From Streptomyces sp. R41 (GTDB taxonomy: Bacteria; Actinomycetota; Actinomycetes; Streptomycetales; Streptomycetaceae), in the NCBI RefSeq assembly GCF_041053055.1, contig NZ_CP163443.1, positions 6,369,001 through 6,433,000 of the forward strand: a stretch of 64,000 nt of DNA, read 5' to 3'. The first letter of the stretch is position 1, and every line of letters begins with the position of its first letter. The notes under the pieces are model-generated. The model was not told the DNA's origin. It searched no databases and worked only from the letters and a program-made list of their open reading frames with translations. A program made the position numbers and the translations under genes. This document shows, piece by piece, positions 53,306-53,992 of the stretch.

Positions 53306-53590
53306 TCAGATGCGGCCCCGGCACAGCTCCAGAAGCGTCATGGCCAGCGTGGTGCCCGGCTTGCCCAGCGCGTCCCTGAAGTGGCCGAGGATCTCCATCT
53401 CGCGCGAGAGGTTCACCCGGCGGCCGCCTGAGGAGATCCGGGCCTCCTGGATCACCGCCGAGACCGCCATCCGTTCCTGGACGAGGCCGATGATCCGGTC
53501 GTCGAGGGCGTCGATGCGCTCACGGGCGCCGGTGATCACGTCGGCGGCCTCGTCGGTGCGGGCGCCGGTCTTGTCGAGTACGTCGGCCAT
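53306..53590 (-). CDS. Chorismate mutase (AroQ class)
   Basis: A 94-residue all-helical enzyme converting chorismate to prephenate on the way to Phe and Tyr. The AroQ features are visible: ARERIDALDDRIIGLVQERM in helix 1 (catalytic Arg), VIQEARISSGGRRVNLSREM (second Arg/Lys region) and the final helix TTLAMTLLELCRGRI. ATG 53590 is preceded by AAGGAG. It corresponds to SCO4784, next to guaA, in S. coelicolor. Upstream on the same strand lie a hairpin and a 23-codon Phe/Tyr-containing reading frame that together look like an attenuator. Confidence 0.92.
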   Translation of the reverse strand: MADVLDKTGARTDEAADVITGARERIDALDDRIIGLVQERMAVSAVIQEARISSGGRRVNLSREMEILGHFRDALGKPGTTLAMTLLELCRGRI

Positions 53591-53645
53591 CGTGGGGCTC
53601 CTTGGTGGAAGGGGTGCCCCGGAGCGGCAGGGCCCGGAAACGGCA

Positions 53646-53676
53646 GACGCCCCGGGCCTTGTCGGCCCGGGGCGCC
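53646..53676 (-). terminator. Candidate attenuator hairpin upstream of chorismate mutase
   Basis: On the minus strand GGCGCCCCGGGCC (53676-53664) pairs with GGCCCGGGGCGTC (53658-53646) over 13 positions, one of them a G-T pair, with a 5-base loop. It sits 23 bases after the leader reading frame and 55 bases before the chorismate mutase start. CGGGCCG in its 5' arm can instead pair with CGGCCCG in the leader frame (plus-strand 53725-53731), giving a possible antiterminator. Confidence 0.6.
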
Positions 53677-53698
53677 TGGGAAGTCGCTTGTCAGTTGC

Positions 53699-53770
53699 TC
53701 AAGCAGCACGACCATGGCAGCCGGCGGGCCGGTTGCCATAGGTAAACACGAAGGTCTGGTGCGTGAGCAT
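53699..53770 (-). CDS. Putative Phe/Tyr leader peptide (23 aa) of the chorismate mutase attenuator
   Basis: The frame encodes MLTHQTFVFTYG and 11 further residues, with Phe, Phe and Tyr codons (TTC, TTT, TAT) within five codons. TTT and TAT are rare codons in this genome. A self-complementary segment (GGCAACCGG/CCGGCTGCC) begins directly after the Tyr codon, where a stalled ribosome would disrupt it. There is no ribosome site, but a promoter ends 6 bases before the ATG, so the transcript could be leaderless, as is reported for some Streptomyces trp leader peptides. Too short for confident gene calling on its own. Confidence 0.5.
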   Translation of the reverse strand: MLTHQTFVFTYGNRPAGCHGRAA

Positions 53771-53776
53771 GGGAGC

Positions 53777-53806
53777 AGTATGCCCGTGGGGGCGGACGGG
53801 GTCCAA
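53777..53806 (-). promoter_or_regulatory. Candidate promoter of the leader peptide / chorismate mutase transcript
   Basis: Read on the minus strand: TTGGAC (53806-53801), 18-bp spacer, CATACT (53782-53777). The expected start point falls at or next to the A of the leader ATG (53770). Confidence 0.5.
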
Positions 53807-53823
53807 GCGGGTTCGGATGCTGA

Positions 53824-53992
53824 GATGCGGGGCTGCGCCCCGTAAGGGGCGCGGGGAACTGCGCGACTGGCCCCCACGCGATCGCACCCAAAAAGAGAAC
53901 CCGAGGGGGTCTGGGGCGCAGCCCCAGGTACGGGACGGGCAGGGGCGGAGGGGGCGAGAAAAACGGCCGTAGGCGGCCCCGCCCCAGCCCCC
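53824..53992 (+). repeat. Dispersed GC-rich Streptomyces repeat, copy B
   Basis: Starts with a hairpin GCGGGGCTGCGCCCCG, then an AAGGGGCGCGGGGAACTGCGCG block and the conserved core at 53905-53963 (GGGGTCTGGGGCGCAGCCCC followed by the GGGACGGGCAGGGGCGG segment). It fills the gap between the chorismate mutase leader promoter and guaA. Confidence 0.8.

Follow-up and report, generated by a model that had tools for sequence, protein, structure and literature searches.

The closest described counterparts of the locus analysed here are the attenuators of Streptomyces lividans TK24, reported as trpL1, trpL2, leuL1, leuL2, ilvL, thrL, metL and alaL (PMC8079986). They come from the same genus, encode short leader peptides in which the regulated amino acid is abundant and place hairpins before an amino-acid gene, and seven of the eight are described as transcribed leaderless. 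However, none of those given in the available text of that report responds to Phe or Tyr or precedes a chorismate mutase gene, and the words chorismate and phenylalanine are absent from its main text (PMC8079986). The aroR leader of the aroF operon in Corynebacterium glutamicum is likewise an actinobacterial attenuator of aromatic synthesis, with a Phe-Tyr-Phe leader, but it controls DAHP synthase and, according to the available text of a review, its signal is Phe but not Tyr (PMC11802643). In Escherichia coli, pheL-pheA follows the same principle with a Phe leader peptide before chorismate mutase activity; there, however, the enzyme is a bifunctional chorismate mutase-prephenate dehydratase (PMC11802643, available text). 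Rfam gives no match that would connect the two RNAs. A survey of actinobacterial RNAs from 2005 reported trp and leuS attenuators in Streptomyces, but states in its available text that upstream of phenylalanine/tyrosine operons no conserved RNA structures had been observed (PMC1262725). A paper of 2026 that treats attenuation in M. tuberculosis mentions neither chorismate nor Rv0948c in its main text (PMC13236596), and the available text of PMC1173090 tells of no actinobacterial attenuator.

In the open-licence literature and Rfam no description of a chorismate mutase attenuator was found, and a literature search with the tag SCO4784 gave no paper. The principle is known; the chorismate mutase member and its breadth appear to be new within the literature searched.

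The window, i.e. the whole stretch of DNA that was analysed, consists of 64,000 nt of Streptomyces sp. R41 (NZ_CP163443.1, positions 6,369,001 to 6,433,000). Leader nucleotides are numbered from the A of the ATG, so that the window position equals 53771 minus n; the features are listed in Table 1. The minus strand carries, in this order, TTGGAC, an 18-nt spacer, CATACT, six nucleotides and the ATG at 53770. The promoter-like pair is therefore present as an earlier note on this DNA had claimed, although a generic scan gave no sigma-70-type promoter and did not list this pair. In 120 of the 121 distinct Streptomyces leaders a -10-like hexamer is found 6 or 7 nt 5' of the start codon; the remaining leader (L110) has TAATAAT at that place. 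Because the frame begins 6 nt past CATACT, the leader mRNA is probably leaderless. The pheL leader has an ordinary ribosome-binding site.

The 23-codon frame containing TFVFTY was confirmed at 53770-53699. When the same genome was searched with a pattern for its aromatic core, only the present site matched, so there is no second copy of exactly that core in the genome. The gene behind the leader does make the precursor of Phe and Tyr, as the note had stated: it is a chorismate mutase (NF005894, TIGR01808), which catalyses the first step of the branch towards phenylalanine and tyrosine, and the predicted control would thus fall on a gene of the leader's own pathway. The guaA gene is divergent from the leader and chorismate mutase. 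Between the terminator hairpin and the enzyme gene lies a block (53637-53594, minus strand; CCGGGCC..GCTCCGGGGC) that is well conserved in Streptomyces. Rfam gave no match in the window at the gathering score, and with E values up to 1 the region 53500-53850 yielded only mir-1268, mir-6132 and sot2652, all far under their cut-offs; the proteobacterial Phe leader is presumably one of the Rfam families.

Table 1. Features of the predicted chorismate mutase leader (window positions; nt, leader numbering)
Feature	Position	Strand	Basis or remark
-35-like TTGGAC	53801..53806	-	read from sequence; 18 nt from -10
-10-like CATACT	53777..53782	-	predicted start at or next to A of leader ATG
Leader frame MLTHQTFVFTYGNRPAGCHGRAA, 23 codons + TGA	53699..53770	-	read from sequence
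Control Phe codon UUU	53744..53746	-	kept in 120/121 distinct leaders
Tyr codon UAU, within 5' arm of pause hairpin	53738..53740	-	kept in 121/121 distinct leaders
Pause hairpin P (segments 1 + 2), nt 28-60	53711..53743	-	-18.6 kcal/mol
Antiterminator 5' partner (loop + 3' arm of P), nt 41-59	53712..53730	-	folding + alignment
Hairpin H2, about nt 59-71 with 81-88, nested in antiterminator	53683..53712	-	alignment A1
Antiterminator 3' partner (5' arm of T), nt 92-107	53664..53679	-	folding + alignment
Terminator hairpin T, nt 93-107 with 113-127, 15 pairs	53644..53678	-	-36.2 kcal/mol
Short U tract after T	53638..53640	-	read from sequence
Shine-Dalgarno-like AAGGAG of enzyme gene	53598..53603	-	by eye
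Chorismate mutase, 94 aa	53306..53590	-	NF005894 E 2e-35 + TIGR01808, both over cut-off

From these elements we consider it highly probable that a ribosome-mediated transcription attenuator, here predicted from the DNA, controls chorismate mutase. RNA polymerase would begin at the leader AUG, as the promoter spacing suggests, so that the ribosome would load onto the 5' end itself. With ample charged tRNA the ribosome would pass UUC, UUU and UAU and reach the stop codon, covering segment 2 of P; T would then form and transcription would stop about 130 nt in. When charged tRNA-Phe, and perhaps tRNA-Tyr too, is scarce, the ribosome is expected to stall and to cover the 5' arm of P. Segment 2 would then be free to pair with the 5' arm of T, capped by H2, and if this antiterminator forms before the 3' arm of T has been made, the polymerase would read into chorismate mutase. 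Without a ribosome, P would form and then T.

The hairpins that the earlier note had proposed are present, with altered boundaries. The small hairpin begins at the Thr codon before the Tyr codon and not after Tyr, and consequently the Tyr codon sits within the 5' arm of P. The terminator-like hairpin comprises 15 pairs, including a single G.U, and not 13; the antiterminator, given as 7 bases, extends to 15 pairs with small bulges, and together with H2 it amounts to -26.4 kcal/mol. On paper P, the antiterminator and T are mutually exclusive helices, predicted and conserved, with thin compensatory evidence. With 3 U within the 10 nt after the T stem, the U tract in the window is weak, and T was not listed by a generic terminator scan of the window. 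The best fold of the window also contained a helix of nt 2-7 with 70-75, which was set aside since its letters, by eye, vary in other leaders.

RNAfold was run on the states of the model. To represent a stall at UUU, the leader was masked by a ribosome as far as nt 37 and the RNA was cut short of the 3' arm of T; the best fold then consisted of the antiterminator and an H2-type hairpin. When the ribosome was placed at the stop codon and T was complete, T was part of the best fold; when there was no ribosome, both P and T were. At equilibrium with the 3' arm of T present, T is favoured even when the ribosome is stalled; antitermination would therefore have to be kinetic, as in classical attenuators.

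The frame was followed through 132 Streptomyces loci, of which 130 showed the core and 121 were distinct; in the other two (L010, L088) the fetched stretch stops short of the core. Start, stop and control codons are retained across these leaders, the sole exception for UUU among the distinct ones being UUC in L041. At the first aromatic position 110 of the 121 have Phe, 5 have Tyr and 6 have neither. From start to UUU the distance is 24 nt in 115 leaders, 27 in 3, 33 in 1 and 18 in 1, a multiple of 3 in all 120 measured. Beyond the Tyr codon the frame is shifted in four loci (L033, L055, L084, L157), whereas the RNA is retained. Length changes thus keep the frame only up to Tyr, which indicates that coding matters as far as the stall codon and the RNA afterwards. 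Frame and codons of the 121 leaders have the form of the translated leader of an attenuator, translation being predicted. UUU lies outside the pause hairpin in the Streptomyces leaders and its retention there is not explained by pairing. In 118 guaA fragments from the same loci, UUU accounts for none of the 1582 Phe codons and UAU for 14 of the 1129 Tyr codons.

The earlier note had expected the short frame, its Phe/Tyr codons and both alternative stems to be conserved among Streptomyces, with compensatory changes. The conservation was found; the compensatory changes are few, because the sequence hardly varies. In the 101 distinct sequences among 107 leaders, identity reaches 90% or more in most alignment columns between the Phe/Tyr codons and the terminator's end, against roughly 50% over much of the region lying further upstream. 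In an alignment of 101 sequences (A1), P and T were paired in 97.3% of the cells (slid controls at most 47.6%) and the antiterminator and H2 in 95.9% (slid controls at most 47.3%). The value for P alone, over 12 of its 13 pairs, was 98.0%, that for T alone 96.8% and that for the five-pair helix of H2 99.4%, the latter with two double changes. Double-change pairs numbered 4 for P and T and 2 for the antiterminator and H2; slid versions of P and T gave up to 5, as many as the real structure.

When a covariance model built from 30 leaders was run on 37 genomes of the genus, 36 of them, that of the window included, gave a single strong full-length match, scoring at least 93.7 bits. Comparison by eye showed 35 of the 36 matches to share a contig with the enzyme match and to lie immediately upstream of it. 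In G002 the leader match lies on a contig other than that of the enzyme, and the stretch around the enzyme (L088) ends before the leader. The model found no leader in G008, where the enzyme match is a fragment.

Dinucleotide shuffles of 34 of the 101 Streptomyces leaders reached the pairing of the antiterminator in 6.0% of cases for a stall at UUU and in 41.6% for a stall at UAU; for 29 leaders of family f39 these values were 9.1% and 6.7%. The antiterminator pairing is thus moderately above dinucleotide shuffles. Since the pairing for the UAU stall cannot be told from shuffles in Streptomyces, sensing of Tyr is doubtful in this genus, and the Tyr codon may owe its retention there to P and not to sensing. 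A broader pairing test on 44 representatives could not tell real leaders from shuffled ones; by eye, its automatic choice of the terminator was wrong for most f6 leaders.

Leaders were also found in other actinobacterial families. In a class survey 79 of 197 genomes matched the enzyme family, 56 of them over its cut-off; in a phylum survey 33 of 80 genomes matched, and the 5 over the family cut-off all belonged to the same class. Four families were sampled further (61, 35, 41 and 14 genomes, up to 30 loci each). Leaders are present in f3 (MLANRRFFYGYGPGSLAIVGC), in part of f6 (RRFFYGYRPAVPVV), in f20 (PPFYGDRARSPLHR) and in f39 (FYFYYGTGSPAAVGRA). Four f3 genomes (G044, G045, G047, G051) had full-length covariance-model matches beside the enzyme gene, with E values of 1.3e-5 to 3.6e-5. 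The remaining matches were weak; many covered T only, and a few were full-length away from the enzyme (e.g. G038, G009).

We then applied a fixed rule for an aromatic leader (a short frame, two aromatic residues within three, then Gly). Upstream of the enzyme it matched 29 of 30 loci in f39, 23 of 30 in f20, 13 of 13 in f3, 11 of 38 in f6 and 14 of 14 in Streptomyces. On the reverse strands it matched one locus in f20, one of the 14 in Streptomyces and none in the other groups, and in shuffles 5 of 600 (f39), 3 of 600 (f20), 1 of 260 (f3), 17 of 760 (f6) and 2 of 280 (Streptomyces), 28 of 2500 in all. The seven f20 loci missed are, we infer, L223, L225, L227, L234, L235, L237 and L241, which comprise five FYQG leaders and two RRFYGG leaders without a start inside the length limit. 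In f6, 27 of the 38 loci do not fit the rule, and one match (L194) may be due to chance. With a broader list of motifs, 87 of 120 non-Streptomyces loci yielded a leader, 86 of them with UUU. In these families the aromatic codons are kept and the letters of the stems are unrelated to those of Streptomyces.

Several leaders deserve mention on their own account. Ten loci (L132-L136, L139, L140, L143, L192, L195) have leaders of the (R/Q/W)RFFYGY type before chorismate mutase, with RFPYGY in L134; judging by the enzyme, we take their genomes to be Mycobacterium-like. Two f6 loci without an FFYG leader show, by eye, other short Phe/Tyr frames near a -10-like box (L193, MIGVRVQLGARYQARYRVSAAFT; L196, RFPSGYRPMVPAA), possibly diverged leaders. 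In some f20 genomes chorismate mutase occurs a second time, as a lower-scoring member of the same family; the scan of two upstream regions (L187, L188) gave no aromatic leader.

In an alignment of 29 of the 30 f39 leaders, P and T were paired in 96.8% of the cells and the antiterminator and H2 in 93.8%. The third base of the Tyr codon covaries with its partner in P (C-G 22, U-G 4, U-A 3). The counts of double changes did not exceed those of shuffles, which were equally high in 180 and 232 of 500. Because these statistics are weak by themselves, the case rests on the recurrence of the architecture with other letters. Eighteen representatives were folded with terminator arms supplied by hand. 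In every one of the 18 a hairpin begins within the Tyr codon or next to it, and in the stalled state at least 8 arm nucleotides were paired upstream in 15 of them and 4 in three f20 leaders. A U tract was absent from three f20 leaders and one f16 leader among those folded. The conserved frame, codons and stems in Streptomyces, together with this recurrence, support the attenuation layout that the earlier note had read from the locus.

Control at the level of translation, with the leader and hairpins gating the ribosome-binding site of the enzyme or the nascent peptide arresting the ribosome and no termination of transcription, seems improbable to us. It would agree with the weak U tract, and the conserved stretch that separates T from the enzyme gene could by eye pair with AGGAGCCCC at the enzyme start, a pairing that might add translational control. 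However, the ribosome-binding site is downstream of P, the antiterminator and T and is part of none of them, and T tracts follow the terminators of many f39 relatives. The residues after Tyr are out of frame in the four loci with a shifted frame, which counts against an arrest peptide.

Still less probable is a leader RNA that binds a metabolite or a protein in the manner of a riboswitch, with an incidental short frame. The very high sequence conservation, which includes some loop letters, would be expected of such an RNA, but the length changes that keep the frame and the retained start, stop and control codons would not, nor would the aromatic leaders of other families with their unrelated stems; Rfam, moreover, contains no relevant match. 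That the short frame is meaningless and the complementarity around it a chance product of GC-rich DNA can practically be dismissed: GC-rich arms do pair with many sequences, and 6 to 42% of shuffles reached the observed antiterminator pairing, but 36 of the 37 Streptomyces genomes sampled have the conserved leader, codons and frame are kept in the Streptomyces leaders, and the leader rule gave at most one reverse-strand match per group and few matches in shuffles.

Within the preferred reading, transcription attenuation, we tentatively raise a further idea that we hold to be rather unlikely. The leaders may form an old, class-wide aromatic switch that senses through the decoding of one deliberately poor codon, UUU. 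It would then read the decoding state of tRNA-Phe (its charging and the modification of its anticodon loop) and not the level of Phe alone, and would hence be hypersensitive. Behind this idea stand the presence of UUU in 120 of 121 Streptomyces and 86 of 87 other-family leaders and its avoidance in the adjoining guaA.

For Streptomyces, the predicted attenuator concerns control of the Phe/Tyr branch point, of which we found no description in the literature searched. Aromatic precursors feed many antibiotics. The locus offers a specific, testable switch with natural variants in which UUU is lost, the frame is shifted or Tyr replaces Phe. Attenuation of one gene, as predicted here, recurs across families with rebuilt stems and kept aromatic codons, where the 2005 survey, in its available text, had reported no structure before Phe/Tyr operons (PMC1262725). 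If the reading of UUU as a poor codon were true, the switch would be hypersensitive by way of the decoding state of tRNA-Phe.
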